A stretch of 64,000 bases of DNA from Lineus longissimus. Its lineage: Eukaryota; Nemertea; Pilidiophora; Heteronemertea; Lineidae. The position numbers and the translations under genes were made by a program. Below are positions 165 to 64,000 of the stretch, one piece after another. The stretch lies in the NCBI RefSeq assembly GCF_910592395.1, contig NC_088312.1:3534001-3598000 (forward strand). Reading direction: 5' to 3'. The notes below the pieces were generated by a model that saw only the letters and a list, made by a program, of their open reading frames with translations, was not told where the DNA came from and ran no database searches. Each line of letters opens with the position of its first letter. Position 1 is the stretch's first letter.

Positions 165-12430
<12,266 letters not shown>

Positions 12431-13480: not shown

Positions 13481-16400
13481 CTATGGACTATCTATATCTA
13501 GAGAAGTCTTGTAACCGCCTTCTCCTGAGAGAGTGGACCACCCCTCTGGATCTGTCGTGGAACATTCCGACCCTGATGTTTCCGTCTCGTCTACCGCGCG
13601 GCTATCCATGTATGTCACAGGTTCGGGTTTCTTCTTTTTCTCTTGGCCAGCTTTCTGAACGGCATTGTAGACGAAGACATCTAAGATTTCAAAGATGCTG
13701 ATGACGCTGCCTCCTACGAGAAGTCCCATAGACCCTCCTATGTCACCTGATAACAAAAGGGAAGAAAAACATCGTCATGTCATGATCATTTAGAATGTAA
13801 ATGAACGGTTTTATAAAGTGACCATGACTTGTCACTACGGAGAAACAGAGAAAAACGTGTCAATCTATCTTTCAGCGTTTCCAAACAATGAGGGGAAACA
13901 CTCAAAATCGTTACGCCCAGGACCTCAGCGGCGATAGGCGCTGATATTTCCACTGCTAGTACCACTCTCTGACAGCTCTCGAGGAGTGTTCTTGTACAAT
14001 TAGCTAACCCAAAGGAGTTAGTTCTCCAAATTCATGATGTCCAGTTCCGAATACTTACTCAGTAAGCTGAAAATCGTGTAAGCTGTCTGCTGCTCAACGG
14101 ACTCGTAGTTCATCTCGCGGAGGAATATGACCATCGAAAGAAAGTTGTCTCTGAAAATATCCAATTGCTTGTAATGTGGTTTCTTTGGAGATCTGATTCA
14201 TGTTCATGTAGGCCTACATATCATATGCATGTATATTTCTCACAAGATTATTGAGCGTTTGTTATAACTCAGAATCATATAAGAATTCTGTTTGGATTTT
14301 CGACAATCTTCTTCCAAAAGCAAAATAGACTAATGTGATCGGATCATTATTGCTGACGCTGACGACACCTTTGCGTGCGATGAGGGATGTTACTTCGGAC
14401 TACAATTATTGTACTCTAATACCTACGTGAAGAACTTCCTTCCAATCTCGTCATCTCTCTTGTGTTTGCCCATCATAACCGCAACCGCTTGACAGGTCTC
14501 GAAAAACATGTCGGCATTTTGAGTCAAGTTCTGTCTAAGGTCCGCCCATTCTTTGGCCCTCTTCTTACTCTGAACTTGCTGATAGAGTGAGCTCTTTAGA
14601 AAACTTTCTTCGTCTGCTAGATCTGGGTGGTAACGCTTCATGTAAAGAAATATGTCACGGTCCGTCATAGTCCTGTTAAAGAGGAGATCCGACCAGAAGA
14701 CATTCTCTATCCAGTTCCATTGGGCTTCCATTGAAGTCGCCAGGGTGTTGACCAAGTCAAGGAAGTACAGCACCTCGTTAAGGTTATCCCTGGTGTCCGG
14801 AGAGGTGTGGAGATTTGCCAGTGTACTGAAGTTTACAATAGGATTTTCTATCGTATCCAAGTAGAGTCTCGTGATGTTCCGCACCCGTTTCAAGGTCTGT
14901 ACATTTTGGCTGACCGTTGCTACATGCTCTTCCAATGAGTTAATGTTCTTTTCTATGTTGTCTATACGTTCTGTTACTCTTTCCTTCATGTATTGAAGAT
15001 GTTCAGCCTTCTCCTTTAGATCCCGCTCGGGCAACCGGAAAATATCTGACATCATCACGCTGCGGTTCCCGTTGAAATTATCAACAGCCCTGAAATATCT
15101 TGTTTCCAGTATGGACAGGGCCTTTCTGTTATATTGCCTCGTTTTTGTCACGCGCCCAAGAATGGTCAAGAACTGGTTATTACAAAATAAAATCTCGTTA
15201 CACATATTAGATATCATATGATAAATCAACTGAATGTTGTAAGCAGATTTAGACGCTGTTGTGGCGTCCAGCGCCTTCCGGAGAAGACTCCTGGGCGTGA
15301 TCAGATTGTGGGCGAACTCATCCTTTCCCGGGTAGCGCGTATCCAATCTACCTTTGGCGTTCCGGTAACTGTCAATAATGTCTGTTATAGCCATTAAGGT
15401 TCCGTTAAGAGAGTTCCCCTTACTTCTGATTGAGGAATCTACTGCATCGAAAATGACCGTCCGACGATCATGATTCTTTTTTGTTATGACCGAAAGCCTC
15501 TCAACACTCTCGCGAAACATTGTCAAGAACGCCACCGGCTGCCCAACAACACCCTCGAAAAAAAGCTTATTGTTGTCCTCAACGTACTTAAGGAACCTTT
15601 CCTTGACTATAAACTCTTGAAATTCGTATGTCTCTTTGATATCCGACAGGATTTTGTTGGTTACCAGCTTAAGTATTTGCAACTCGTTTCTCTTTTGATG
15701 TAGGAATTGCTCAAATTCAAGTTGAAGAAAGTCACTCAGCATGTCCATGGCTTTCAAACATGGCGTCAAGACGTCTCGTGTCTCGTCGATCTTTGTCGTC
15801 ATTCGCCTGATATCACGTGCCTCTTTATATCTAAAGTTCAGCTCGTCTTTTCGGGAGTAATTATCTAGGATTTTCGCCCGATCGAATGCGGATTCTTTCA
15901 GGAAAGAGAAGAATGGATTGTATTGCGTTGTGTCGCAAGGTGGCTTGCAGTTACACAGGGATCGGCTGTGCTCATCAAATTCGGCTGAAAGGTAGAGAAG
16001 AGATTTGTACAAGTAGGCCTACTAAAGACTGTAATTGCTATATTTTAGCCATATTATTACATAGATCTTACGCTTAGTACTTTCATTATGAAAAAATGAC
16101 TTACCCTTAAATTTCTTGTAATGAACGGCATATTCGAACATAGTGCAAGTCGGACCATCGCCTGCAAGACAATAATACACAGAATGTGAATTTAGAAGTA
16201 AAAATGTTCGTGAGAAGATATCAAGCGTTTTCAGTTGATTAAGATTCGATCAGCAAAAGAATCAAAACTCATTGTGATTGGGTCCGAATATGAAACAAAT
16301 TCATTGTGAGAAAAAAAGATGCTGACACTCGGAACACTCTCCAAGCATGCAAGGAGCATGGTCGAAAGTTAAGTGTGCAAGTTTTTGTTCGCTCGCACTC

Positions 16401-19012
16401 GCCGACCCTGGACGCAGTTGTGGCTGTGGAAGGAGCCTGCAAATTAAGGGGTGACGCTTTTTGCGGATGGCTAGAATACAACATTGTACCTTTCATGTAG
16501 GGCAGCTTGCACCCAGTTTTCCCGAAGAAAAACCTGGTAAAACACTCCATGTAACAAGCGGTCTCTGAATATGTTGGGTAGTATTTAAGCTTGGCACTGT
16601 TGGTACAGTTGCCGTAAGGTGGAGGCAGTCGCTTGATCTGAGGAATGACATGAGAAATGTAAAGGATTATCGGTCAAAATACAGAAACCTCCTGCCATCA
16701 TTGCTTTATGTGGAACGGGCACGTGATCCAGTGTAGGCTGATTTCTTAGGATGTCGTGATTATTTGTTTTCCTGTATGATTTCATTACAAGTTAAAACTA
16801 CGCCAAATGGCAATCGATGTGTAATGATCAATGACGACAAGATGAGAAACAAACAGGAACTATAGCTACAATTACAGTAATAGCAGCATTATCAGTATAG
16901 CAACACGAGCATCAGTAGCCTTAGCATAATCTGTAGTAGAAGCAAGTGGAATATCAATGAATTGAAGAATAAAGAATTCTCTCCGCGGAATTATTTCGTT
17001 GGTGAAGATTTCTTTAACAGTGTATATCATGACGTTTTGTAGCAAATTTAAAGTTAACTACATGTTTAAGAATTCAGTTGGCTTACCACTTTCAGCTTTA
17101 TTGAAATAAAGGTATACGTCCCGGGAAGTACCCCGTCACCCTTTCCAGCGAAGAGTGGTACTTCACTGTGGTCAGCCAGCAGTAGGTAAAGCCCACTGGC
17201 CTGGTTCGGACCCACCATAGCCTCATAGGTCTCAACGTTGATGACCAGCTTCAGCGAAGCCTTGGTGCCTGCAAAGTAAACATCTCTTTCAGATACAAGG
17301 AAAGGGGGGCAAATGTGATAATTAAAGGAGCCGAAACAAAGTCTTTTGCGTAAAATAGGGTCCATTGCTCGTATCCTGCTCGGACACCATCCTGTTCAGG
17401 CACAGACCGTAGAAAGCATGTTTATTGAAAGATTCTGTTAAGGGCAAGTAGAATTGTTGTCGTCAATGAAAAGCTTCAGCCCTTGTTCTTTGTAATTGTG
17501 TGAAGTTTATGAATGTGAAGCGCTTTGAGCGACGAAACCACGTTTGATTTTGTCTCATCACTGTTATCATTATCAATAATATTTGCAGAATAAAGTCTAT
17601 TGAACCATCTTGAAAAATGTTCTATGTTTCAGAGCCTTATAGTTCCTCACTAGATAAGATCTTAAAGGAATGTCTAACCTGACTTGGAAGTGTGCAGTGG
17701 TTCCTCTGAAGATGCTGGATAGAAGTTGTTGAAAGAATAGCAAACACCGTGATCCGTGAAAATATGACTAAAGTTGGACGCACTGCATTTCAGGCCGAGC
17801 CAGTTACACCTAAAAACCAGAAAGAATCGAATAATAGAAGGGTGACAGTTATCATGACCGTTTAAAACTTTTGAGGTATAATGTAGTGCAGCATGCGCAT
17901 CCGTCGAAAAAAACTGATAATGTGAAAAGAAACTGTGGAAAGGCATGCATCGACGGTCTAGTTTTGGTGTAGTGCATTCATTCTGGAACGAATGGAAGAA
18001 GGGCTTAGTAGCTGACTCACCCCACAATCATGTCCTCAGCCTGATGAGCAGTAGAGAGGAAAACATCCTCCATCGAAAGATTGAGGAATCGTTCATCGAA
18101 TTGTGTGATATTCGGCCCCGTTACGTCATCAGACTTACTCGAACTGTAGAACGTGTTCAGTTGATCTTTGTAGCCGAGTCGATAAGCTTCACGAATTCTG
18201 TAAATGAGACTAAAAGCTTGTCTTCGCTGTGTTGATACACTCAAGCATGCTTGCTACAATTGATCTGTTGTGGCAACATGGCAAAGGATGTGATCGAGCT
18301 GGCATCTGGGTAAGATAAGATTTTGTACTCTAAGGAGGTATTGCAAATGCTGTAAGAAGTAGATGTAATCTCCAAACAATGAAGTTAAGACAGTCCAAAT
18401 GAGGATACTGCACTCATGATCATTGGAATCTGTTCATAACCTTCGGGACTTTACCTGAACGAGTTCTGGTTGCAGATGGCAATCGCAGGGAATCGCAGCG
18501 ATTCGTTCAAGTTGACATCGACCTTGACTGTGACCGGCCATTCCATATAGTGGATGACACTATTCACCAACAGGTTGACAAAGATACCCGTCGAAGCGAG
18601 GAAGATGAGGAGCCAGAGAATTCTGGAATCAATATATAATCTTATACATGTATCATTTGCATAAATTTCACACTGCACATTTTTTTTATCTTGCTTCTTC
18701 ACCTCTGTAATAACCAAATGGTATTAAGTACAGAATTAATGGAAATTGAAATTGATTTTGGCACTATAAAATTAATACAAAAAATATGTCGATCTACCCT
18801 CGATGTGCATATGTCCATGGGGGACACTTAAGGACTGATGTTCATCGCCGGTTAGTCAGCATACACGCATAAACCTACATCTTTTATTAAACTTACCTTC
18901 GAAGCGTCGAAAGGGATGATCTGTCCCAGACGTAACGAATGCCATGGAAAGTCGTATCCTGCGAAAACTGCTGCAGGATGTCGCGCCACGACTTCTCAGT
19001 CTCATCCTCCAT
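13481..19012 (-). CDS. DEG/ENaC-family sodium channel subunit with giant extracellular insertion
   Basis: An amiloride-sensitive/acid-sensing-type cation channel subunit. Exons (minus): 19012-18897, 18622-18455, 18221-18021, 17809-17679, 17268-17087, 16637-16490, 16161-16105, 15984-14427, 14150-14059, 13746-13481, giving about 972 residues. The sequence shows the N-terminal HGIRYV gating motif, TM1 at roughly residues 40-64, FPAIAICNQNSFR after TM1, CNWLGLKC and GVCYSFN, PPPYGNC, CTMFEYA, CNCKPPC, then the pre-TM2 segment NYESVEQQTAYTIFSLL and TM2 with DIGGSMGLLVGGS, where GGS replaces the usual GAS filter. Nearly every junction keeps phase; the start of the exon at 18221 is a weak acceptor chosen because it alone keeps the frame. 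Usual family length is 500-700; the excess is in the exon 15984-14427. It converges on the phosphatase gene. Confidence 0.92.
14427..15984 (-). other. 1.56-kb channel exon encoding a ~480-residue helical insertion
   Basis: The exon opens with SLCNCKPPCDTTQYNPFFSF, the cysteine motif at the base of the DEG/ENaC thumb, and its donor leads directly to the pre-TM2 exon. In ASIC and ENaC proteins only about 45-60 residues separate these points; here there are about 500. The extra segment is uninterrupted by introns or stops and rich in Glu, Lys, Arg, Leu and Asn with heptad-like spacing, so mostly alpha-helical. It has a few Asn-X-Thr/Ser sites, in keeping with an extracellular position, and only a handful of cysteines. 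I recognise no known domain in it. Open frame over this length and intact flanking motifs argue that it is translated, not a retained intron. Confidence 0.85.
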
Positions 19013-38582: not shown

Positions 38583-39608
38583 ATCAAAATATTGATGAGT
38601 TTATGTGAATAGGTAATAAATTAGTTTCTTAATGATTACTTGCTAATTAACGCATATATGTTTTCAATATTGAGTGAATGTGTTAAAATTGAAAAATGAA
38701 CACAGAAAAATGCGTTAAAACAGCAAAAATACTGCTATATAGAAAAAACCCTCATCGATGTTTAGATGTTTAGAGTCAGTTGTAATACTTCTGGCAAATT
38801 TCAGAAAATGTCAAAATTCTGAGGATAAGTATCGATTTTAACTGAATCACGGAATCAAGTTGAAGAATTATTGTATATATTGGTAAATTATCTTGTGAAG
38901 AGATAACTTTGGTGTGTCTAGATAAGGACCACATCTATGCATGAGGTGTGTAGCTGACATAATTTGCCAAAGGATTACAAAATTTGAAAAGAAAAAAGAC
39001 TCATCGCAGTCACACTCTCAGACTCTGACTCCGACACTGTCACTTGTAAAGCCTGTCACTGGTGGTCTCAAAACCTGCAAACCAGTAGGTGAGGCAGGTC
39101 AGAAATCGGTCATGCGTGCATTCCTCTTGGCAGACTGCAGCAGCAGCTAAGGACAGGCAAAATGTTGCAAGGTAGGTCATGACTGAGGATCAGACATTGA
39201 GACAACACTTCCCCCTGCCAGAATCAACACACATCACTGGTCAGGATTGCCAGTCCTGTGAAAACTAAATTCTTTTTTCTTTTTCAGCAAGACTGTTCAA
39301 GCTTGATGACCTGAGAATGAGATGTCTGCTGCATTTTTCATGGTTGGTATAACCAAACCAAGATGAACTCATCAATTTAATGTTGATATGTTTCATGCGC
39401 GAATTTCATGGATTGTTCCTTGTTGGTACTCTGGTGTGGGGGCTGCACAACTAATACCTGGTGGGCATCACAAGAGGAATTGCGACACCTCTATGATTCC
39501 CTAAAGTTCTGATATGAGATCAGAAATCAGTTAAGCAGACATTGTAAGGCTAAGGGAGGCCTACTCTCGTTGCCTATTTTGATAGATGTGCCAGCTTATT
39601 CTTCCAGA
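38583..39608. other. Upstream region of the LicD-like gene
   Basis: No coding exon is evident. An acceptor-like pyrimidine tract ending ttttcag near 39285 suggests a spliced 5' leader for the gene at 39609. Confidence 0.4.
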
Positions 39609-40463
39609 ATGGGTAGAGTGTACAAGAAAAAACTGATTCGTATACCAGTAAGCCATTCATGTTCAGTGCATGCCGCTGCAGATTTGGTCACAAAGAAGCC
39701 ACATTTAACATTCCCTCAACTGAGGTCAATCTATAAGAAACTCGTGAAATTTGTTGTGTTTATCCTAGTGTTTGTGATGCTGCCCGTGGGTTTTGTTTAT
39801 GTTGCAACATGGGGGCGGACCTTTACACTGTCCCCAGGACTTACTGAACTGTTCAAATTTAACCAACCAAATCATATGAATACTGATCTAAATCGCCTGA
39901 AGTGCACAATGTCGGCACAGGAACGTACAGACATGGTCAAACTTCTGAAAGGTATTGATTCAGTTTTGGAAAAACATAGAGTGACGCATTGCCTTTGTTA
40001 CGGTAGTCTGTGGGGAATGCTTCGAAAGGGTGATGCTATTCCATGGGACCATACTGCTGACTTCTGCCTCCTGGAACGAGACTTAAAACATATAGACAAC
40101 GATCTGTTTTTCAAGGATTTCCTAGACTTGGATATGATCTTGCACTATGACCCACACTTTGGCCAGTATACAATAGACTTTGGCCATGCGAAAGCTCGAT
40201 TGGTGCTTTTCAAGGACTGGTCGAATAAACTTGGTTGGCTCATGTACCGTAGAATTGGATCGTGGATTAAATTCTGGAACTGGCAACATGAGACATTTCC
40301 TAGGATTCTAATGGAACCGCCTCTTAAGAAGGGAAAATTCATGGGCCTAGACTTGCCGGTGCCAAGAGAAAGTTTTGAGATTCAGAAGTACCTCTACCCC
40401 AATAGCTGGTGGGTAGAAATAGTGCCGTTTGAGTGCCAGAATGACCAAAAAAATTTCTTTTAA
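39609..40463 (+). CDS. LicD/fukutin-family type II membrane protein
   Basis: A single-exon frame of 284 residues from the ATG at 39609; the open frame extends upstream but only without ATG. A basic N-terminus precedes one hydrophobic helix (KFVVFILVFVMLPVGFVYVA), so type II topology in the Golgi or ER. The lumenal part has CLCYGSLWGMLRKGDAIPWD, the LicD/fukutin-related nucleotidyltransferase-like motif that starts the active site in phosphosugar or phosphocholine transferases. The acidic motif reads D-H-T-A-D where relatives usually have D-x-D-x-D, so the middle Asp is Thr. Substrate is unknown. AATAAA at 40779-40784 fits its 3' end. Confidence 0.82.
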   Translation: MGRVYKKKLIRIPVSHSCSVHAAADLVTKKPHLTFPQLRSIYKKLVKFVVFILVFVMLPVGFVYVATWGRTFTLSPGLTELFKFNQPNHMNTDLNRLKCTMSAQERTDMVKLLKGIDSVLEKHRVTHCLCYGSLWGMLRKGDAIPWDHTADFCLLERDLKHIDNDLFFKDFLDLDMILHYDPHFGQYTIDFGHAKARLVLFKDWSNKLGWLMYRRIGSWIKFWNWQHETFPRILMEPPLKKGKFMGLDLPVPRESFEIQKYLYPNSWWVEIVPFECQNDQKNFF

Positions 40464-49607: not shown

Positions 49608-50720
49608 CTAATTCGCCTTGCAGATTGTTCGTATCTTGGGGTTCTTCAAGTCCTTCCATAATTTTATCAAATTACCAGGCGTCATATTCGTCATGACAAA
49701 TACTTTCTTCTTGATTAAATGACACACTTTATCATCTTTTGGCAAATACGCGTATTTCTGAAACTTCTCTCCCCTGTCTAATAACTTGACAGTCGTTCGT
49801 TTCTTCATCTGCCCAAGAATTTCTGGAAGTACCCCCATTGAGAAAAAGTCAGCTTTTTGGTGTTGCTTTACATTCTTGGAGGTTCTATACAGTGCCGCAG
49901 CAAGCCTGGGCGTAAAAATAAACCCATCTCTCTTTACGTAAAATGGCATCTTTCGAAATTGAAAAATTCTGTTATTGGTTGAGATTCCTTCAACTTTATT
50001 TACCAAAATTTCATCATCCTTGATGGGTTTCTTTTCGAGATAATGTGAAATGGCAGGAATATTTGGAAATGAGTTGTCAGTGATTATCAGAATGAAATTG
50101 ACGTCTTGGCATTGTTCCGATGTCCATAGGTACACTAGTAGAATTTTCTTCGCCTCATTTTCCAAAGTATCAATGAAATTTGCTTGAATGATGTCTTTGT
50201 GAGTTTCGCTTTCTTGAAAAACTTTGAATTGATTTTTCAATGTTTCATTCTTGTAATAGCCGAGAATGAAAAACACCTCAACGTGCACATTCTTTGAACC
50301 CCTGTTGAATGCTGGCCACACACCAGTTTTGGAATAAGATGCCCAAGTTCTCCTAATCACGTCTCTTTTATGATGGGCTCCCGGATCTGATAAAACCAAC
50401 ACCACTAGTTTACTTTCTATCTCGCATGGGCCAGGGTTGATGACGTATCGCATCTTTGGGAGGACATTCCTCCACTTTAACCTGTCAGAGCTACCATTGC
50501 TTCGGAAACAGACAATGACGAGAAATACCGCCGTTAAGGCTATAAAGAGAATCCGGTAGATACGTCTTGCATTGAGACTCACGGAGATGTTGAAGCATCG
50601 TGTCTGCATTGGCGTCCTGAAACAACTTTGGACGATTGGGTTCAGTGATGGATTTATGGATATGGTAGGCATCTTTCCCCTGCTCATGGAAGTTCTGCAA
50701 GTAGATGAACCAAGTCCCAT
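49608..50720 (-). CDS. Beta-1,3-galactosyltransferase-like (GT31) protein, probably inactive
   Basis: An intronless frame of 370 residues. A type II Golgi anchor lies at about residues 51-72 (RIYRILFIALTAVFLVIVCF). The stem and N-terminal catalytic half show GT31 features: PCEIESKLVVLVLSDP, RRDVIRRTW-like KRDVIRRTWASYSK, FILGYYKNETLKNQ. Where the family has K-x-DDDVFVN, this protein has IITDNSFPN, so the metal-binding DxD is lost. The later EDV motif reads ADF (KADFFSMGVLPEILG). The segment corresponding to PYCSGGGY is FYVKRDGF. Frame and hydrophobic core are intact over the full length, so it looks like a constrained protein that has lost transferase chemistry. Several in-frame Met near the start make the exact N-terminus uncertain. 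Confidence 0.82.
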   Translation of the reverse strand: MGLGSSTCRTSMSRGKMPTISINPSLNPIVQSCFRTPMQTRCFNISVSLNARRIYRILFIALTAVFLVIVCFRSNGSSDRLKWRNVLPKMRYVINPGPCEIESKLVVLVLSDPGAHHKRDVIRRTWASYSKTGVWPAFNRGSKNVHVEVFFILGYYKNETLKNQFKVFQESETHKDIIQANFIDTLENEAKKILLVYLWTSEQCQDVNFILIITDNSFPNIPAISHYLEKKPIKDDEILVNKVEGISTNNRIFQFRKMPFYVKRDGFIFTPRLAAALYRTSKNVKQHQKADFFSMGVLPEILGQMKKRTTVKLLDRGEKFQKYAYLPKDDKVCHLIKKKVFVMTNMTPGNLIKLWKDLKNPKIRTICKAN

Positions 50721-50875
50721 CAAAGTACAGGAACATGAAGATCAAAACTCAGCCCAACTGACACCCTCATACGATTATTTTACATGTAATGTACATAAGA
50801 TAATTTTACATGTACAGTACATGTATATTGATGAGTGGAGTCAGTTGGGGTGGAGTTATCGACATATAAACTATT

Positions 50876-51123
50876 GGAAGTGACTACTTGGCAAGCCCGG
50901 CTTACCAAACAGCGACTTTTTCTTGTCCTGAATGGAGAGCCGAACTCATTAATATTAAAGTAAAGTCTCCAGCTCGCCAAACAGGGTAGATTTTTTACCT
51001 GTTTGGCAAGCCCGGCTGGCCGAACAGGGTGGCTTTTTAGTGCTGTTTGGCAAGCGGCTCTCCAAACAGGCCAAGATGAAAAAGATGTCTGTTCGGCGAG
51101 CGGCTTGCCAAATAGACCCGGCC
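50876..51123 (-). mobile_element. 248-bp palindromic MITE, copy 3 (reverse orientation)
   Basis: Same family as 2744-2987, inverted. The perfect 9-bp target duplication TAAACTATT lies at 50867-50875 and 51124-51132. It is four bases longer than the others owing to a variant A-rich stretch. It lies about 155 bp upstream of the GT31 start codon, in its promoter or 5' leader. Confidence 0.88.
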
Positions 51124-51132
51124 TAAACTATT

Positions 51133-52134: not shown

Positions 52135-55100
52135 ATGGTAAGTTTTTTCAACACTTTTTGTGTTCGAATTTTTCCAATAGAGGCATACCAACTCTCTTCA
52201 TCACGGATAAGGATGAGCTGAAGGGATGGTTATAGATTGACCACAGGCTCCACCATTTCGGCCAGACCCGCTTAAAATCTAAAGCACTTAGAACTCTTTT
52301 AAAAAGTGAATGTCAATTGCAAGAGTGGAACTCTAGAGTCGGTTCCGGAGAATAGACTCCCACTCTTGAAATTGGCATTCACTTCAATTTGAAGAAGTTG
52401 CTTAGGATTTCAAGCTTGAGCCGAAATGATGATGCCTCGGACTCGGTTTTGAGAAGTGACACACTGTATATGTCAATCACCACAGTCTGGAGAAGAACAC
52501 TACGCTCGGCGAAATGGTACCCACTATGGCAGCTGCTGTCATGATCATTTATAACGCTGTCATTGTCTTCGGTAGTTCTTCATTTTTTTGTCTTCATTGC
52601 AGCCTAAGACTGTTGACAACATCCGTGAAACCATCCAAGGTGCTATCAAAAGTGATCTTGAGAGTAAGTAGCCTGTATAACGTAATATTCCCAGGTAACA
52701 CGTCCCGATGGGTGCAATCCATACACCCCCAAAAAATCAGTCTCCCGGTCTTCAGTTCTGGCACTTTCTAATTACTGATTTCGCCTTGTCGGTAAAAAGA
52801 GTTTACAGACGTCCTTAGCAACGATGCTTACATATGTGGATGCTTGGAGAATGACGAAATAAATTTCGAAAGAATTAACTTCGTTTTTAATGCTGTGCAG
52901 ATCTCCCTTCACACGCGTAGTGATCCTTCGCGTGCATCTAACTTCACACGCGTATAGTGATCCTTCGCGTACATCTAACTTCACACGCGTGGTGATTCTT
53001 AATGCGTCCACATCTCACTTCACACGTGTAGTGATCCTTCGCGTACATCTAACTTCACACGCGTGGTGATTCTTCATGCGTCCACAAATCCCTTTACACG
53101 CGTAGTGATCCTTCAATCATTGGACCCTAAAACTATCAAGCTCGGCAGGGTTTCAATCACAGTGACTTTATATCATCAAAACAAAGTGTTTAAAACATTT
53201 TGCGGAAGAAATGTTGTTCTTTAAATCGCTGATATTATTAAAATCATCAAACCACGGCAGAGATAATGGTTGCCAAGTGCGCGACACGCTCGTTACCCAT
53301 GAGTTACTGCATGGGTCAAGAATATTGCTCCAGGTCCGAAATGCTGACAAAAGGTAAGAGAAACGCCCCCTATATAGCTATACCAGTATTTCGTGACAAT
53401 GAACGTGACGTATGGTTTACCCTGTGTAATGATTTGACGTATACATATATATATATGCATATTATATCACTTTCTTTTTTTCAGGGGCCGAAAAAACTTT
53501 TAATAATTTAGATGCAATGGGGGATAAGAATGGTAAACTTTCCAAAGCTGACCATGAACAAGCATTCATTGGCCTCGGGAAGAAGTACCACATACCGAGT
53601 GAGTATGCTTCTACCCATATGGACCCCTTGTGATAACCAAAAAAGCTACCGACTATGATGTCATCTCGCCACTATCTTTATCTCCAGGTTATCCATTGTA
53701 TCATTAACATATAATGAGACCTGATGGTTTTTCTTTGAAAATAACTAGAAAAGGGCTGGCAGTATATGTAAAAAAGGAAAAAAGTTAAAGAAACTAAATA
53801 AACCGATGCACAAGTAATTATCTTCGTGCACGCGATCTCACCAATGCATAATCTTCAATAATTGTCCAAATAGGGCAGCTTGTTGGTACAATTATGACGA
53901 ATGGTAGACTTAAAATTTTCTGATGGTTATAGGCGACATATCAAAGCGTCTTGTCAACGAGAAATCTCCTATTCTGTCAGGATTTGAGTAGGCCAGAACA
54001 AGTTATTTTGACAACAGTTTCGAACCTCCTATTAACCTTTTCAGGCGATGCCGAAATCACCCTGGACGAATTCAAGGCCGCCTGTGCATCCAATGCTCTC
54101 GAGAAGAAACTAAATATCGAGGCGTACGATCAGGATGGCGTGATTGGTATGATTGATTGCTCCGACTTCAGACGCATGATTGAATGCGAGCTGGGCGAAA
54201 ACATTGAAAACGAGGATGATGGCGCACTCCGCACCATTATGGCGGCGATCAACACGTCCGGAAAGGAAGGCTTGTCATGCACTGGTGTGTTTTTAAAACT
54301 TCTTCTTTGCGTTCGCTGGACAGTCACTTCCAATCTGTTGATAAATTCAGTTGGTCTTTACAGTATACTGAATGTTCTTTGCAGTACTATACACCTGCAA
54401 GTGAATAGTTAATTGCAGTACTATACATGGACTCAGCTGCATTTACCGTTTTTAGGTACATGTATATCATACTCCAAAATCACTGGCCTAGAGAGCTTTT
54501 CAGGACATACCATTGGCCAAATAAGGGTGTTTTGTGGAGAACGACTCCCTCCGAGTCTGCTTCGCCTATTATCTCTGAACATATACATGTATAACGAATA
54601 TACAAAACTTTTGTTGCAGTTTTCAAGACAAAGTTATACGAAATGTACAGCAGCCCAGAATTATATGGGAGTGACGATGCATCAACGGTAGGATAACGAC
54701 AAACTAAGAATAGTGTTTCCATAAACATGGCACATTGGAACAATGTCATTTATGCTATATTTACTGGATGGATGTTGATTTGGAACAGAAATGATGCAAT
54801 CTTGCAACTGTACTATATTTTTTAAAGGCCGGGTCTATTTGGCAAGCCGCTCGCCGAACAGGCATCTTTTTTTGTCCTGTTTGGAGAGCCGCTTGCCAAA
54901 CAGCACTAAAAAGCCACCCTGTTCGGCCAGCCGGGCTTGCCAAACAGGTAAAAAATCTACCCTGTTTGGCGAGCTGGAGACTTTACTTTAATATTAATGA
55001 GTTCGGCTCTCCATTCAGGACAAGAAAAAGTCGCTGTTTGGTAAGCCGGGCTTGCCAAGTAGTCACTTCCTTTTTAAAACGCCCTGTCTACTCGGAACAA

Positions 55101-56966
55101 AAAAAGAAACTGTATATCATATTAGTTTAGCTATTTCCTTTTTAAGTAATTGGAAAAAATCTCCGATATAAAGTTTTCCTGATAGATCAATATCATCTGC
55201 AATAATGTTGTAACAACGCTCAACCTTTTATTTGTACTCCGTTATCTCGAAGTTCATAACACAATCACAAGTCCAATAAGAAGTTAAGTTGGCATTTTAT
55301 GTTCTGCCCCCTCTCGCCTCACACATTACACACACTCGACGCACACAAATCCCCCTTGGGTGTACATTGCATGTTTCACACTCGACGCACACAAATCCCC
55401 CTTGGGTGTACATTGCATGTTTCATGTTTCATTTTTCAGGCATTATTGAAGGCATGCCATGCTAAACTTGAACCCTCCGAAGAACAAACTGTGGGTATGT
55501 TGAAATTATTTATTATTTACAGTTTATATACGTGAATCAAAAACAGTCAAATTGGTAAATAATAAATTCGCGGTCTTCTGTGTCGCACCGATATAAAACT
55601 AATCTTTAACAGTCAGATATACCATTTACAGTTACGTGTATCGGCGGTTAGACAAGAGGACATAGATCTACATGTAGGTACTGAGATTGATTTCCTTGGA
55701 TTCTTCTTATAGGTTTTTATTGCTAACGGTCACATATGGGTTCTATTTTTCAGTGCATACAAAGAATTTTGAAGAAATTGATAAATCTGGGAACGGTCAA
55801 ATCGATGTGAAGGACTTTGAAAGTCAAGGAGAAATGACCCCCGAGTTCATTGCTGCTGTTAAAAAGATCCGAGTCGAAGACAAGGGAAAAGGTAGGTCAC
55901 ACTGCCAAATGAATCATAGGTCTGCTGTTCCTCCTAATCATTCTTCCTACGGACATGGCGAGTCCGATCCACGGCTTCCAGAGTGCCGTAAAAGCGATTC
56001 TTCATGTAAATAAACGGTACACTGTGGCTAGTGTATCGGCTAAATTTCATGTGACCCCACCAATCAGCAGGATCGGGAATATGTATACATGCAGTGAGGG
56101 ACAGCAGAGACATCGATATTGGTGACCTTTCGGAACATCAATATGAGCCACCGCACTCCTGTCTATATGAAGCCATTCAGTAATTTAAATCTTTAAAAAT
56201 TTGACTCATTTTTCAGTAAGCGTCGATACTTTCGTGTCCTTGAGGGAATACTTGCTGGCTTTGACGCTGTGCGGATGGGACAAAATCATGGAAAAGGCCA
56301 ATGGATCACTCCCTACAACAGTTACCAAGGACGTATTCCTGAAATTCCTAACCGAAGCCGGCGTGAGCGCTGACGCCGCAACTGTAAAGACCGTCTACAA
56401 CAAGATGCCTGTGGCGGAATATTCAGCCTCAATTGATGGTAAGATGCTTCGTGTTATTAGGAAGTGTTAAACATGAAGTTCTTGGGAAGGTTCCCAGCGT
56501 ATATAGCGCCCGCCCGGCCTCGGGATTTCCCTGGCTCGATTGCTGCGGGCGGGCTCTGCCTTCTCTGTGTCGGCTATACCTTGGGAGCGCTGCTCCGGTG
56601 TATAGCGTTTTTGTTTGTCCCTCACATTACAGTTTTGCCATACAATAGAATGCTAGAGAGACTATGACTTTTCAACATGAGGAATCGGATAAAAACGTGT
56701 CATTATTACTGTCAATCTGTCTTAGAGCGTACCAAAACGATGAGGATCAAACACTCGGAAACGAAACCACTCCCAAAACGTTGCTCCAGCTGGTATAAAC
56801 CGTTTCATGACCTCGATTTAACTGAATTGACAAACGTTTTCGAATAGAAATGCAAAACCAAGATGTGGACACGATGGTTAATTTTGTCTTTAAAATCTGT
56901 CAAATTCTGTTTTCAGATTTCTACCAAGGCATTGCAAACTTCGTCGTAAATAAACTGCTTGCCTAA
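52135..56966 (+). CDS. EF-hand calcium-binding protein
   Basis: Exons: 52135-52137 (ATG only), 52603-52663, 53485-53598, 54045-54284, 54620-54687, 55440-55494, 55754-55891, 56217-56438, 56917-56966; every junction keeps phase, giving 316 residues. EF-hand-like loops: a degenerate one around LDAMGDKNGKLSKADHEQAF, another with DAEITLDEF, one with YDQDGVIGMIDCSDF, and the best in FEEIDKSGNGQIDVKDF (D-x-S-x-N-G-x-I, with Asp at position 12). The C-terminal half has paired helices but no clear loop. No signal peptide or membrane segment, so cytosolic. It resembles invertebrate sarcoplasmic or calbindin-type buffers, but I cannot name an orthologue. Confidence 0.85.
52905..53114. repeat. 35-39-bp minisatellite in EF-hand intron 2
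   Basis: Six units begin CTTCACACGCGT or a close variant at about 52908, 52943, 52980, 53019, 53054 and 53093, each followed by GTGATCCTT or GTGATTCTT. Two alternating spacer types give a higher-order pattern. Confidence 0.88.
54827..55070 (+). mobile_element. 244-bp palindromic MITE, copy 4
   Basis: Nearly identical to copy 2. The flanking repeat is TTTTTAAA on both sides (54819-54826 and 55071-55078), with one extra T/A shift compared with the exact 9-bp duplications of the other copies. It lies in the EF-hand intron between exons ending 54687 and starting 55440. Confidence 0.88.
55331..55422. repeat. Perfect 46-bp tandem duplication before an acceptor
   Basis: Two identical units begin CACACTCGACGCACACAAAT at 55331 and 55377. 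The second ends 17 bp before the acceptor AG of the EF-hand exon at 55440. Identity implies a recent event, or a collapsed or expanded assembly. Confidence 0.9.
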
Positions 56967-57455: not shown

Positions 57456-59111
57456 TTACTCGTTGACCGCAAGGCGGTCGGTAATCCGTACCCTGCATAT
57501 CGGACACTCTCTCAACCTGGCAGCGCAAGTGCGACAGCATATCAAGTGATGGCACGGGACGAACACGGTGTCTCGGTCCTTGTCGACACAGATGGAGCAC
57601 AGCTCTAGATCATGCAGACTCTCGTTCTCCTCATTGATCTCTCGAAGATCGCCGCTGCTGTTCACACGCGGACCAAAAGTGGGCGACACAACTGGCGTCT
57701 GCTCATATCCTTCCAATGGAAATTCTTCACTTGACCTGCTCTCCATTGGTAACGGGGTGGTTTGGCTGCTTGGTGTCCCAACAATGCTGTTATAGCGTAA
57801 TGATCCAGGATTTGAGACCACAGCACTGGTAGTACCTTCGGAGTTCGCGGGTCTGCGGTGAAACTGTACGCTTGGTGGCGGCCGGCTCTTATTTCTTATA
57901 CCGTCGAGGACCTTTACCATTTCTGTTGCGTTCTGGAAATCCGCGCCTGTCTGCATCAGTCTTTCCTGGATGACGCTCCCGACTTCGTCCTCCGAGTAGC
58001 CCATGCCTATGACATAGCGTGCCATGTCCATGTCCAGGCGGGCCATCACAACTCTCCCATCGACCAGGTATTGGTTGGCGATTTGAGATTCAGCGCCTCT
58101 CTCCTCCACGGAACCCTCCCTCCTCTGGCTCATCCGTTCGTCTCGGAAACCTGGCGCGCTCATCTCATTGCGAACAGAGGAAACAAAATCCTCTCCTTTC
58201 CGGAACAAGACATATTCACAATCAATGCTGTACTTTGCATGCTCCTTCCAAACGTTGTCGTTTTCTTGCCATTCATGAAGAATCAATTCGCAATTGAAAC
58301 ATTGGCACAAGTCGTCTGCAATGAAGATAAACCCACAGTCTGCAAGTTCTTCCTTTGTTGGCCATTTCCTTACAGGCCAGAGATCGAACGAGGAAAGCCT
58401 CGACTCGTAGGTTTCGAAATCTCTTATCTTAGCGTTTCGAGCATCAAAAATGGGTCGTTGAATTCTTTCCGTCGCAGCCGGTGATCTTAAAAAGGTCGAT
58501 ATCGGAACAGAGCATTCTCCCATTGCTGTTGCATTTGCAGGCTCGTCATTTGTCGATGTGATCATTCCGAATGGGCCCCTCTGCAGGTAGAGATCCAGCC
58601 TTGAGAGCTCCGGGTGGCTCCCGGATTTCTGGGGTCCACTGGCGTACATTTCATCATCGTTGATCGACTCCACTTCATCAAATAACTCATCGCCAGATGA
58701 ACTCAACCGCTGTGGATTTTGCCATCTTTTAATAACACCATTGCTCTGCTTTTCACCAGATTGACCATACATGTATCTCCCTACCTTCTGCTCCTCAGGC
58801 TTACACATGGGTGACTTTGCCCGATGTTGGTCAAACAAATCATTCATATGCTTCGGAATGTCAAAGCTAGATTCGCAATCAACACAGACAACCCTCTTTG
58901 TTATCTTGTCGTAGTAGAACCCCTTGTCAGCAAGGGTTATTGATGATAAGTTGATTGGAAGGGAAGAAGCCACGGAGAAAGAGGCTAGCCTTCTCATTAC
59001 GTCTTTCATCCTTGTGGCTGCCGCTCCTGCGTGTTCATTTGTTCCCGGGCCTTGGTTGTGACCAAATGGTTGTAATTTCGAGCTCCAGGATTGATTCAGG
59101 AAGGCTGCCAT
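57456..59111 (-). CDS. Inhibitor of apoptosis protein with two BIRs, UBA-like segment and RING
   Basis: An intronless 551-residue E3 ubiquitin ligase of the IAP family. BIR1 is at residues 36-103 with C-x2-C-x16-H-x6-C (CVDC, H, SPMC). BIR2 is at 232-299 with the same exact spacing (CFNC, HAKYSIDC). A UBA-like helical segment lies around 355-405 (MARYVIGMGYSEDEVG, with the MGY loop). The C-terminal C3HC4 RING at 505-541 is CSIC, CHH, CRTC, CPIC. All zinc ligands are present. The layout resembles BIRC2/3/4-type IAPs with one BIR fewer, and such genes are often expanded in marine invertebrates. A 5' acceptor (CTTTCAG) at 59139 shows a noncoding exon upstream. The region between BIR1 and BIR2 is long and probably disordered. 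Confidence 0.95.
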   Translation of the reverse strand: MAAFLNQSWSSKLQPFGHNQGPGTNEHAGAAATRMKDVMRRLASFSVASSLPINLSSITLADKGFYYDKITKRVVCVDCESSFDIPKHMNDLFDQHRAKSPMCKPEEQKVGRYMYGQSGEKQSNGVIKRWQNPQRLSSSGDELFDEVESINDDEMYASGPQKSGSHPELSRLDLYLQRGPFGMITSTNDEPANATAMGECSVPISTFLRSPAATERIQRPIFDARNAKIRDFETYESRLSSFDLWPVRKWPTKEELADCGFIFIADDLCQCFNCELILHEWQENDNVWKEHAKYSIDCEYVLFRKGEDFVSSVRNEMSAPGFRDERMSQRREGSVEERGAESQIANQYLVDGRVVMARLDMDMARYVIGMGYSEDEVGSVIQERLMQTGADFQNATEMVKVLDGIRNKSRPPPSVQFHRRPANSEGTTSAVVSNPGSLRYNSIVGTPSSQTTPLPMESRSSEEFPLEGYEQTPVVSPTFGPRVNSSGDLREINEENESLHDLELCSICVDKDRDTVFVPCHHLICCRTCAARLRECPICRVRITDRLAVNE

Positions 59112-59138
59112 GACCGACAGGGATTATCAAGTGATAAT

Positions 59139-60775: not shown

Positions 60776-62476
60776 CTACATCGGGTCAAGGTCCTGGGGT
60801 CCATTGTCTGTGTCAGCATTCTCTAACTTGATTCGTACCTTGTTCATGATCACCTTGCTTAGCAAACCCTTCCATTTTTGCCGTACAGAAACAGAGTTAT
60901 TGACCAGCTCAGGATTCTGCTGTTCTTCTACAAGAACTGACGTACCTTCATTTGCGTCAGGATTCATGGCGTGGCTTTCTGGGCCCGCAATCTCGCCATT
61001 GTCACCAGCGTCAGTTTCCGTACTTATTTTACCATTCTTTGATTTTACCTCCTCCTCGTCGAGTGCTTTATTTGCATCGATTTCCTTTTCAGCCCACTCC
61101 GGAATCTCTTCTCCCTCCGCGAGATCAAGCTCAGGTTGTAGACCTTCTTCTGTTTGAACCGCATGAGGCCTATCATCGCTGCTCCCTTCCGAAATGACGT
61201 CTCCTGCGGAGAAAGCTGCATCGTCTGCTGCCGACAGAGTTGGGTCGTCTGCTTGCGGTTCCTCAACGTTTTCCACGGACCTTGCCTGTCCACCTCCTCT
61301 GTGATTAGACTTTGCCGTACTTGCCCTTGTATTAGATGGAGTTGTGCTAAGGCGAGGGTTTCTAGCGGAAGTGACTTCGGTACTTTTCTCTAAACCACGA
61401 GACATCGGTCTCGCCTGCCCAGGATTGTTGTCATCTGAAGCTCTGCGTTCACCTTTCTCCATCAATGGTGAACATAAGCGAGGCGTACTGATTTTGGTCC
61501 TCGAGACAGGTCTATATCGACCCCTTTCTCGCTTCAGTGGTCGTTCCAGACACACTGTTGGGTAATGTGGTGGCTCAGTCCCGGGGTCACTTTTTAACGC
61601 TGCCATGGAGTTCCTCAGCTGAGAATGGAGACAGCCAAAATCACCTTCGAGGCTTTCCCGTTGATCCACGCGCGGAGTTGTGCGGAGCTCGAAAAACGGT
61701 ATCTCACGAGCATTTGCCATACGGTTGAAGATATGACTTGCACTTACATCCATCTTGTTCGGTCGAAGATAGTTCCCATATTTCATCCTCTGGTATTTCT
61801 TAAAAGTTGGCAAGATCTCCATGTCGCCCGCGGATCGTGGACGTTTCGTTTCTGGAATAATTGGCGCTTGTACGGTCTCCATCTTTTTCTCCGACTGAAG
61901 GATGTAGGTGTTTGTGTAGGAGACATCGGGGGCCGATGGGACCACACCCTTCGTCTCGACCGAAGTCGTCCACTGGTAGCGCTGCAGACGTGGGGCGGCT
62001 GCCACATCCTTGATTTCAGTTTTGGACCGCTTCATGTCTCCGAGAAGAACAGGTTTGAGCACAGATTTTCCTCCCACGCCTTGCCTACCTAAAGCTACTT
62101 CCTTCTTCATAGTAATCGTCTCAACAAAACTCTTACCACGCTTACCGCCAAAGATTCCGCCGAGTTGCGTCCTCTGTCTATGTTTCATGATGGGCGAAGG
62201 GTGCGGCGCACGCTGGTTGTAGGCCGGTCCGAGTATAGTCCTCTCATCCTCCTCTGACAAGAGCTTCTGACGAACGCCATACCGGAACAGTTCCTTCAAG
62301 TCACTAGTCGTTGGCTGTACAGTTCTGAAGAGGTACGGGCGTTTGCTGATCTTAGCCTCTCCAGCTATAAGATTGGGCATGGGTTTTTCTGTACCCTTGC
62401 CGCGCAGTAACATGACTGGACCACTTAGATTCATGGTTCCGGAGATTTGAATCTTGTTAAGCTTGTTCTTCTTCAT
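60776..62476 (-). CDS. Unrecognised 566-residue charged protein
   Basis: One uninterrupted frame from ATG 62476 to the stop. The N-terminal 300 residues are basic, with Lys/Arg, Pro and Ser and a possible helix at DLKELFRYGVRQKLLSEEDE. The middle is Ser/Arg/Pro-rich. Residues from about 400 are strongly acidic (Glu/Asp runs such as LDLAEGEEIPEWAEKEID), and the last 40 are basic again. No signal peptide, membrane segment or catalytic motif is visible. It looks largely disordered, as in cytoskeletal, ciliary or nuclear scaffold proteins, but I do not recognise a family. Frame length makes chance unlikely. Exons upstream of 62476 cannot be excluded. Confidence 0.7.
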   Translation of the reverse strand: MKKNKLNKIQISGTMNLSGPVMLLRGKGTEKPMPNLIAGEAKISKRPYLFRTVQPTTSDLKELFRYGVRQKLLSEEDERTILGPAYNQRAPHPSPIMKHRQRTQLGGIFGGKRGKSFVETITMKKEVALGRQGVGGKSVLKPVLLGDMKRSKTEIKDVAAAPRLQRYQWTTSVETKGVVPSAPDVSYTNTYILQSEKKMETVQAPIIPETKRPRSAGDMEILPTFKKYQRMKYGNYLRPNKMDVSASHIFNRMANAREIPFFELRTTPRVDQRESLEGDFGCLHSQLRNSMAALKSDPGTEPPHYPTVCLERPLKRERGRYRPVSRTKISTPRLCSPLMEKGERRASDDNNPGQARPMSRGLEKSTEVTSARNPRLSTTPSNTRASTAKSNHRGGGQARSVENVEEPQADDPTLSAADDAAFSAGDVISEGSSDDRPHAVQTEEGLQPELDLAEGEEIPEWAEKEIDANKALDEEEVKSKNGKISTETDAGDNGEIAGPESHAMNPDANEGTSVLVEEQQNPELVNNSVSVRQKWKGLLSKVIMNKVRIKLENADTDNGPQDLDPM

Positions 62477-64000
62477 GTAAGCACCAACAATTAGTTTAGT
62501 TAGTTAGCAGTCTCTGCTTTTACCATATTCCATATCTTGTTTTCCAGGATATGGAGCTGTCTGAAGCGAAGACATCAATGAGTCGTCTCGGAACGGGCAC
62601 AAACTGTTTACGCCAGAAAAAGCCGCGCGCTTCCGGTTCTTCTAAACAGAAAGTCGGTGTTATCATGTACTTCTGTCCTCAAATTCTCCTCCACGTTATA
62701 CCGAAGTATTTCCCGGCAGCTTATCCTCTTGTGACTTTAAATTTGAAATTGAAAGTTGTTCCTCTTCTTGGCCAAATACGAAGTTTTCACGACTACTGTG
62801 TATTCGTAAATAGAACTTCCCCATATGGTCACGGACCTTCTACATCGTTGACGTTGAGCTGCCTGTGGGAGTCCTACGCCCTTCTGCCAACTTTGCCCAG
62901 TTTACCCTTGAACAGATAACATACTACTAAAACGAACGTCTCTCTAGCGCCCATTTGATCCTGTCTCTCCTGGTGGACGATTCAATGTTGGGTCTAGACT
63001 TCTTTTTTGCAACATTACTGACTTATGGCTGGAAGATTTTGACATTTCGGAACATGCTTGACATAATCTCTGACGGATTTGGATATAAAAACATTTTAAT
63101 CTAGCTTTTTAATTCCTCTGTGGCTTTCTAAGGGGCTTATATTGGTCTTAGCAACCGCGAGGCGTACGTAAACTCACTACAGGTCACTACATGGGGCTCT
63201 GTTCGATTTTTAAGATATTTTTTATATGAATTATATTGCCTCCAAAGGTGAATACTGTATCACGCTTCTGCTATTTCATGGCAATTTCATGGCAATTTCA
63301 TGGCGGATCCCGTCGATATACAGGCCTCGTTGTTAACGATTTAATCCTTTTAACAATGTTCAGAGACCAAGTCGGGCGTAACATATGCCAGCGGATATTT
63401 TCTTACACGAGCAGAGGATTAAGAAATGACTTTTTATAGCAAAAATATTTGTCAATTTTTTTGTAATAGCGTTTACACGACGACTCCACTGACATTGCAT
63501 TCGGCATTATTGTTTGCGTGACGATCTTTTTAATAATTTTATCACTTGGATTGGTGAAGCAGTCTTAAATAACCCCCTGGAAAAAGTGTCCTTCCTTATT
63601 GTATGATGACGGATTGAGGTATAGCTATATAGAGACCCTTTGACCTTCAATACCTATCTGGGATTAAAAGCATGCGTTGACTATATACCCTGCTATACAC
63701 CGCTCGAGTCGACCTCAAATTACGTCCCAAATCACCGGCTGGCGCCTCCGGTTCCAGCCTGCATTTTCGGTCAACCCGAGTGGTCTTGATTCCAACGACC
63801 GCCATCTCGGTTACACGGATGTAGAGCACAATAATTCAAAACAAACACTGTCAAAAAACCTTTATTTCTATTAAAAGAGTGTATGTAAAAATTTAATGTA
63901 GTCTTGATAAATTGATTTTGCAGCCCGAACTATATATAACATTGCATAGCCAACACCTCAGGCCTGTAATACCCCTATTATAACATCCGCCATCTCTCAT
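62477..64000. other. Window end without supported gene
   Basis: Presumed upstream region of the 566-residue gene. I see no exon with family motifs. A short triplicated CATGGCAATTT string lies near 63278-63302. Confidence 0.4.

Follow-up and report, generated by a model that had tools for sequence, protein, structure and literature searches.

Does the nemertean Lineus longissimus possess a DEG/ENaC channel whose ectodomain is enlarged by hundreds of residues, and if so, at which point of the channel architecture do these reside and what may they be for? The question arises from a window of 64,000 nucleotides (the whole stretch of DNA analysed), located on contig C5 of the genome examined (Lineus longissimus, 391 Mb, 30 contigs), for which a sequence-only reading had described an intact channel with a long extracellular insertion in its thumb region.

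Gene model

Positions 19012-13481 of the window (minus strand) were identified as a DEG/ENaC gene of ten exons encoding 964 residues with one terminal stop, whereby all introns are of the GT-AG type and the phases agree across the ten exons. The joined product was found to be LOC135488499 of Lineus longissimus (100% identity over the 541 residues scored, equal length), which is publicly annotated as uncharacterised; the other depositors of this identical gene model probably used the same assembly as was used here. The features are:

Exon 1: 18897..19012, minus strand; start codon, cytoplasmic N-terminus and HG motif (GT-AG, phase-consistent; HG alignment columns)
Exon 2: 18455..18622, minus strand; TM1 and first palm strand (exon joining, hydropathy)
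Exon 3: 18021..18197, minus strand; ectodomain, finger (ASIC alignment)
Exon 4: 17679..17809, minus strand; ectodomain, finger / beta-ball (ASIC alignment)
Exon 5: 17087..17268, minus strand; ectodomain, palm / beta-ball (ASIC alignment)
Exon 6: 16490..16637, minus strand; ectodomain, thumb with cysteines (ASIC alignment)
Exon 7: 16105..16161, minus strand; end of the thumb (ASIC alignment)
Exon 8: 14427..15984, minus strand; CNCKPPC palm strand, start of the knuckle helix and the entire helical insert
Insert proper, residues 375-840: about 15841-14444, minus strand; unaligned to ASIC2, with homologues and predicted helices
Exon 9: 14059..14150, minus strand; palm strand after the knuckle (NFLSMVIFLREMNYE) and pre-TM2 (ASIC alignment)
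Exon 10: 13481..13746, minus strand; TM2 with G-G-S filter, C-terminal tail and stop (filter alignment)

Several other features were observed in the window. Matches to fibronectin-III and tyrosine-phosphatase domains at 2980-3342 and 11505-11930 (plus strand) may belong to a gene for a receptor-type phosphatase lying next to the channel on the opposite strand. An open frame of 555 residues at 57459-59123 (minus strand) encodes BIR and RING domains, as found in inhibitor-of-apoptosis proteins, while one of 575 residues at 60779-62503 (minus strand) gave no Pfam match at E <= 0.001. Galactosyltransferase and LicD matches were obtained at 49611-50741 (minus strand) and 39513-40460 (plus strand), and parts of one peptide and its variants were recognised in four open frames (2655-2990, 6149-6628, 50783-51127 on the minus strand, and 54795-55127), which probably identifies a dispersed DNA repeat.

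Channel class and core features

The Pfam ASC profile matched LOC135488499 with an E-value of 1.6e-82 (278.4 bits, cut-off 23.6), hydropathy reached 1.2 or more solely at residues 34-65 and 869-909, corresponding to the two membrane segments, and both the H-G motif and the G-G-S filter are kept in the DEG/ENaC alignment columns. An intact channel, as described in the sequence-only reading, was thus recovered within the 964 residues. All 21 insert-bearing rows extending as far as the filter keep G-x-S. The available text of PMC6197857 gives seven conserved disulfides for the DEG/ENaC ectodomain. Twelve of the 14 ASIC2 cysteine columns are kept in LOC135488499, the other two reading T and H, and all 14 are kept in the three mollusc members and the one Lineus paralogue examined. 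The two columns missing in LOC135488499 presumably represent one bonded pair in ASIC1.

The closest solved structures were those of ASIC2 (E 1.3e-59) and ASIC1 (7.2e-58), followed by ASIC5, ENaC and FaNaC. H73, D78, E411 and E416, which according to the accessible part of PMC9949801 show fair conservation among ASICs and are required for their activation by protons, are represented in LOC135488499 by V, D, R and E (positions 73/78/411/416), and a histidine at ASIC position 73 was found in none of the 23 insert-bearing rows with data, a pattern that suits some input other than the proton gating of ASICs.

A tree of the channel core, calculated without the insert and without a FaNaC row and leaving out Lin_C3_6.85 (99 residues), P0003, P0005 and P0012, placed the 23 insert rows, with weak support, apart from ASIC1 and ASIC2 (58/41, 60% of 200 bootstrap trees) and separated insert rows plus ASICs from nine insert-free Lineus DEG/ENaCs at 99/98. 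These nine channels are all single-exon and distant. One gain of the insert is compatible with this tree but not proved by it, because the nearest insert-free spiralian relatives of the ASIC branch probably lie outside the sample. The nine channels (L037-L045) served as controls and were scored as free of the insert by their open frames of 563-677 residues and profile spans of 1.45-1.72 kb, as the motif-spacing measure worked in few of them. Their filter reads G-I-T in eight of nine and their HG motif R-G in eight of nine; judged from such sequence features, they are another, distinct DEG/ENaC group.

Exon 8 and the site of the insert

Exon 8 (15984..14427, minus strand) comprises 1558 bp between an acceptor ending in tcag and the donor gtaggt, is entered in phase 1 and left in phase 2, and holds 518 complete open codons, while the other five frames hold 12 to 39 stops; the earlier claim of one long open exon of 1,558 bp was hence borne out at identical coordinates. 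As this length is not a multiple of three, skipping of exon 8 would shift the frame.

When aligned to ASIC2 by phmmer, residues 13-374 and 841-906 found their counterparts, whereas residues 375-840 (466 residues, all of them in exon 8) did not, and zero ASIC residues were lost between the two aligned blocks; the roughly 500 extra residues formerly assigned to one exon were therefore confirmed in substance. The distance between the initial cysteine of CNCKPPC and DIGG is 541 residues in LOC135488499 versus 73 in ASIC2. The normal spacing of 45-60 residues given before proved fair, as the respective ASIC2 strand and pre-TM2 segment begin 43 and 55 residues after the CNCKPPC equivalent.

The insert begins once the first turns of alpha6, the helix that succeeds the CxCxxPC palm strand, have been completed. 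As described in the available parts of three structural papers (PMC6197857, PMC10178586, PMC2701601), alpha4 and alpha5 of ENaC and ASIC form the thumb, and alpha6, which comes after the strand following CxCxxPC, is the knuckle, a short helix adjoining the adjacent subunit's finger within the collar at the top of ENaC and ASIC1. Following the CxCxxPC palm strand and residing inside alpha6, the insert is therefore located in the knuckle. The thumb placement suggested earlier was wrong, being ruled out by the ASIC2 alignment together with the assignment of alpha6 as knuckle.

Homologous inserts in molluscs

The same domain was identified at the same point in 13 further proteins (P0002-P0014), which come from bivalves, gastropods, one cephalopod and, in two cases, from contigs. 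Where a source is labelled 'lgn', we take this to denote Logan read assemblies. A protein search with the insert alone had been proposed as a check on the sequence-only reading and, once carried out, yielded relatives in molluscs. With the Lineus insert region as query, at least three relatives were obtained, namely two proteins from Pecten maximus and one from Bulinus truncatus (four matches including self, 7991 scored). The Pecten insert as query returned at least 12 matches (7997 scored), two of which were the same Pecten maximus proteins; three scallop genera, Solemya, Saccostrea, Patella, Babylonia, the cephalopod Argonauta and two contig proteins are represented among them, and the Lineus and Bulinus proteins were absent among the matches listed. 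A four-sequence profile returned only the Lineus protein among the matches listed (7994 scored), with its three profile relatives absent, an outcome that we ascribe to the limited number of candidates scored. Throughout the insert-query searches, only nemertean and mollusc proteins and the two contig proteins were present among the matches listed. In the databases, the proteins go by names such as 'uncharacterized protein', 'degenerin-like protein del-10' and 'Acid-sensing ion channel'.

The length of the insert is 470-488 residues in 14 of 14 proteins and 475-478 in 12 of the 13 non-Lineus rows. When compared with the others, the Lineus insert shares 57-85 identical residues of 450-473 aligned, and the Lineus core preceding the insert 64-76 of 184-206 (P0012, with 13 of 42, aside). 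As both mollusc and nemertean members carry the domain, we infer from these sequences that the insert is a conserved, inherited domain older than the nemertean-mollusc split. The low identity of the Lineus insert relative to its core would suit a passive spacer or glycan shield, which raises the channel, or protects it, within mucus or a narrow space between cells and has no specific partner; this reading is considered unlikely, and the near-constant length exceeds what a spacer needs.

The homologues also bear on whether the insert is an artefact of annotation or assembly, or whether exon 8 is normally spliced out, either of which is regarded as extremely improbable. The joined gene models are predictions, TM1 is wholly or partly missing from P0003, P0004 and P0013, P0012 scarcely extends beyond the insert, and P0014 is flagged 'LOW QUALITY PROTEIN', all of which would be in line with such an error. 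However, open homologous insert exons recur at numerous loci and across many species, and skipping of exon 8 comes at the price of the frameshift described above. In the relative P0005, moreover, a single frame of 895 residues on a contig of 3656 bases runs from the HG motif to TM2 with the insert included, which suggests, but does not prove, that this contig represents a mature transcript. A frameshift, named beforehand as a sign that the exon is an assembly artefact, was not seen in exon 8, and other depositors arrived at this gene model too, probably from the same assembly. An artefact or frameshift of the assembly was rejected on the strength of the open exon, the deposited protein and the homologous inserts at other loci and in other species.

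Copies of the insert in the Lineus genome

When a single insert exon was searched against the genome, 18 matches at 14 places were obtained (E <= 0.01), and at each of these 14 places DEG/ENaC core exons were found on the same strand beside the insert. Among the 14 places matched by this query, no orphan copy outside channel genes was found, and for the Lineus genome a domain that also lives apart from channels was rejected on the ground that channel exons adjoin every one of them. A profile of the 13 non-Lineus inserts, built without the channel core, recognised all eight Lineus insert exons submitted (E 4e-95 to 9.2e-14), as compared with a best E-value of 0.14 for eight shuffled controls. 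Applied to open frames of at least 70 residues from 19 loci, the same profile recovered all but one of the 13 other Lineus places (E <= 1e-3), C19 only weakly (3.3e-4) and C17:9.82 Mb by way of a frame of 193 residues (5.1e-16). The place it missed, C4:6.22 Mb, was assigned by an E-value of 0.0065 in the insert-exon search and by its position.

At C4 about 6.22 Mb (L052:5418-8060), a diverged paralogue carries an open frame of 881 residues at the place of the insert, in the translation of which arginine-rich tandem repeats were recognised by eye. From this paralogue, the insert domain may tolerate further insertion.

The insert exons at C11:2.38 Mb and C5:22.78 Mb share 304 of 572 residues, with pN 0.29 and pS 0.76 (saturated), as determined on stop-to-stop frames, of which a few flanking codons may be intron. 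Since pN amounts to 29% as compared with 76% for pS, the sequences of this paralogue pair show the insert exon to be kept by selection at the protein level. In the other five Lineus paralogue pairs, pN (0.41-0.57) is likewise below pS (0.73-0.82), at values near or at saturation that are less informative.

Fold and sequence character of the insert

AlphaFold2, suggested at the outset as a further check, was run on single chains with 14 sequences, whereby the insert was folded as part of the whole protein and was predicted to be almost wholly helical. For Patella, residues 421-850 were modelled as a helical domain with block means of 77-96. The model of the Lineus protein reached a whole-model mean pLDDT of 63.1 and a pTM of 0.40, with a poor channel core and only 39-47 for insert residues 761-800. 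The helix-rich character claimed before is in line with the long helices predicted, which superpose on helical bundles; the coiled-coil character named alongside it stays putative. The lowest variability within the insert (19 of 23 rows, four near-copies dropped) was found at Patella residues 480-509, 555-569 and 585-599, within the part that superposes on four-helix bundles, while single conserved positions are spread along the whole length. These conserved patches may be merely the folding core.

Recognised domains were sought as well. Exon 8 gave zero Pfam matches over the curated cut-off, and seven Lineus insert exons matched only ASC (four) and HSBP1 (one, E 0.0028, below its cut-off) at E <= 0.01. 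Against PDB profiles, the best E-value was 0.0084, from partial HA2 matches that we take to be chance. In the fold comparison of the whole Patella chain, ASIC and other DEG/ENaC chains dominate the rows among the matches listed, and a family missing from that list means little because these chains fill most of it. A known domain was not recognised on this basis, neither in Pfam nor in the PDB, and the fold matches stay at the common level of helical bundles. Internal repeats were rejected, with profile windows compared with each other giving probabilities of at most 1.34% in ten comparisons.

An extracellular location, as stated in the sequence-only reading, agrees with two further properties. 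Firstly, the highest 19-residue hydropathy within any of the 14 inserts was 1.46, compared with 2.41 and 1.97 for Lineus TM1 and TM2, so that none of the 14 holds a membrane-type segment and a membrane or pore segment was ruled out. Secondly, 6-12 sequons per insert were counted versus shuffled means of 2.9-6.2, above the mean in 14 of 14; the excess is not significant for the seven sequons of the Lineus insert (246 of 2000 shuffles reach seven) nor for P0003 and P0004 (407 and 408 of 2000), and is marginal for P0013 (163). Three sequon columns common to 10-12 other members were not found in Lineus LOC135488499. By its sequons, the insert is probably glycosylated. The excess of sequons over the shuffled mean is what a glycan shield would lead one to expect, but the patches of low variability and a pN well below pS exceed the needs of a spacer.

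Proposed role as an extracellular arm

The reading put forward here, held tentatively and at slightly less than an even chance, is that of an extracellular sensing or tethering arm which gates an ASIC-like DEG/ENaC sodium pore, akin to the stalk or tether already suggested in the sequence-only reading. It proceeds from the position, frame, splice sites, homology, near-constant length and predicted helices of the insert, from the selection on its protein sequence in one Lineus paralogue pair and from its lack of membrane segments. DEG/ENaC subunits form trimers. In a subunit of the ASIC-like branch, the knuckle helix alpha6 would be opened to accommodate some 470 residues that form a helical extracellular domain of their own. 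This domain would rise from the top edge of the trimer, at the contact between the knuckle and the adjacent subunit's finger. The insert may form an arm, its head at the far end of a stalk being held by a ligand, a matrix component or a neighbouring cell, and movement of this arm would pass via the knuckle and the flanking palm strands to TM2, whereby the pore opens or shuts. We infer this gating step by analogy. In FaNaC1, FMRFamide was reported to occupy a site formed by the finger and alpha6 of the adjacent subunit, although alpha6 itself is described as relatively static during gating, which speaks against this step (PMC11026163, available in part), alpha-ENaC palm and knuckle glycans were implicated as tethers in shear sensing (PMC10178586, in its available part), and modelling of ASIC1 tied finger-knuckle motion to the palm (PMC2701601, likewise). 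Considering the FaNaC1 site, the tether glycans and the ASIC1 motions, an arm on alpha6 would therefore be well placed to let a ligand or a pull act on the palm strands and on TM2. Counting against the arm are the two cysteines and the three shared sequon columns missing from LOC135488499, the poor model of its channel core, and conserved patches that may represent no more than a folding core.

The main rival is an assembly role, in which three arms, or the arms of different paralogues, pack as a crown that decides on subunit partners or destination and has no part in gating; this was judged possible, though rather doubtful. DEG/ENaC channels assemble without such an insert, and the sequons along the mollusc inserts would hinder tight packing. 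The long helices predicted for most of the insert are in favour of a crown, 14 places with divergent inserts in one genome would suit a choice of heteromers, and, from the available text of the respective papers, the ENaC knuckle makes subunit contacts (PMC6197857) and the static alpha6 of FaNaC1 (PMC11026163) fits as well.

If the sensing arm is extended to all members, the insert-bearing channels would form an ancient class of receptor-type DEG/ENaCs, pre-dating the nemertean-mollusc split, in which a knuckle-borne helical receptor senses a ligand or a pull and gates the pore. This wider view is offered as a conjecture, with perhaps a modest chance of being correct. If it holds, the many diverged Lineus copies would constitute a sensory repertoire.

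Novelty and comparison with known systems

A published description of DEG/ENaC channels with a knuckle insert was not found in the open-licence literature (no preprints, few subscription journals), and the available parts of PMC9949801, PMC9822975, PMC10148893, PMC10178586, PMC11026163, PMC2701601, PMC6197857, PMC12919962 and PMC9234716 contain no such insert. The earlier statement that no family member of this build is described consequently stands as to papers, but not as to databases, where the protein and its relatives were already deposited, without a function. As far as the literature found goes, the DEG/ENaC channel is known, and the added domain and its place are undescribed.

The finding bears on how the outer domains of DEG/ENaC channels convert force or ligands into opening: the knuckle carries a domain that exceeds the remainder of the ectodomain in size and seems to have persisted since the nemertean-mollusc split. 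The insert may therefore be regarded as a natural, removable lever for asking whether the knuckle drives the gate, and the orphan channels of scallops, oysters, limpets and a cephalopod provide a set to try for the stimulus.

Long helical bundles (designed, ClyA-type, TTYH, chemoreceptor sensor domains and talin rods) resemble the insert at about the level of unrelated bundles, with identities of 2-12%, and no relationship is claimed; the insert adds a helical domain that we could not assign to a described family. From ASIC1 and ASIC2, LOC135488499 differs by its 466 extra knuckle residues, and H73 is missing in the insert-bearing rows. With the GRIP domain of ENaC, too, a DEG/ENaC subunit has a regulatory stretch added to its ectodomain, but one much smaller than the insert of about 470 residues. 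GRIP sits in the finger, between alpha1 and alpha2 (PMC10178586, in the part available), whereas the Lineus insert resides in the knuckle and is predicted to be helical. The peptide-gated FaNaC and MGIC channels are also spiralian DEG/ENaCs, whereby FaNaC is a weaker match to LOC135488499 (best E 7.4e-22) and its PDB sequences comprise 679 and 600 residues as compared with 964. The entries from scallop, oyster, Solemya, limpet, whelk, Bulinus and argonaut (within P0002-P0014), finally, carry the same domain at the same place.
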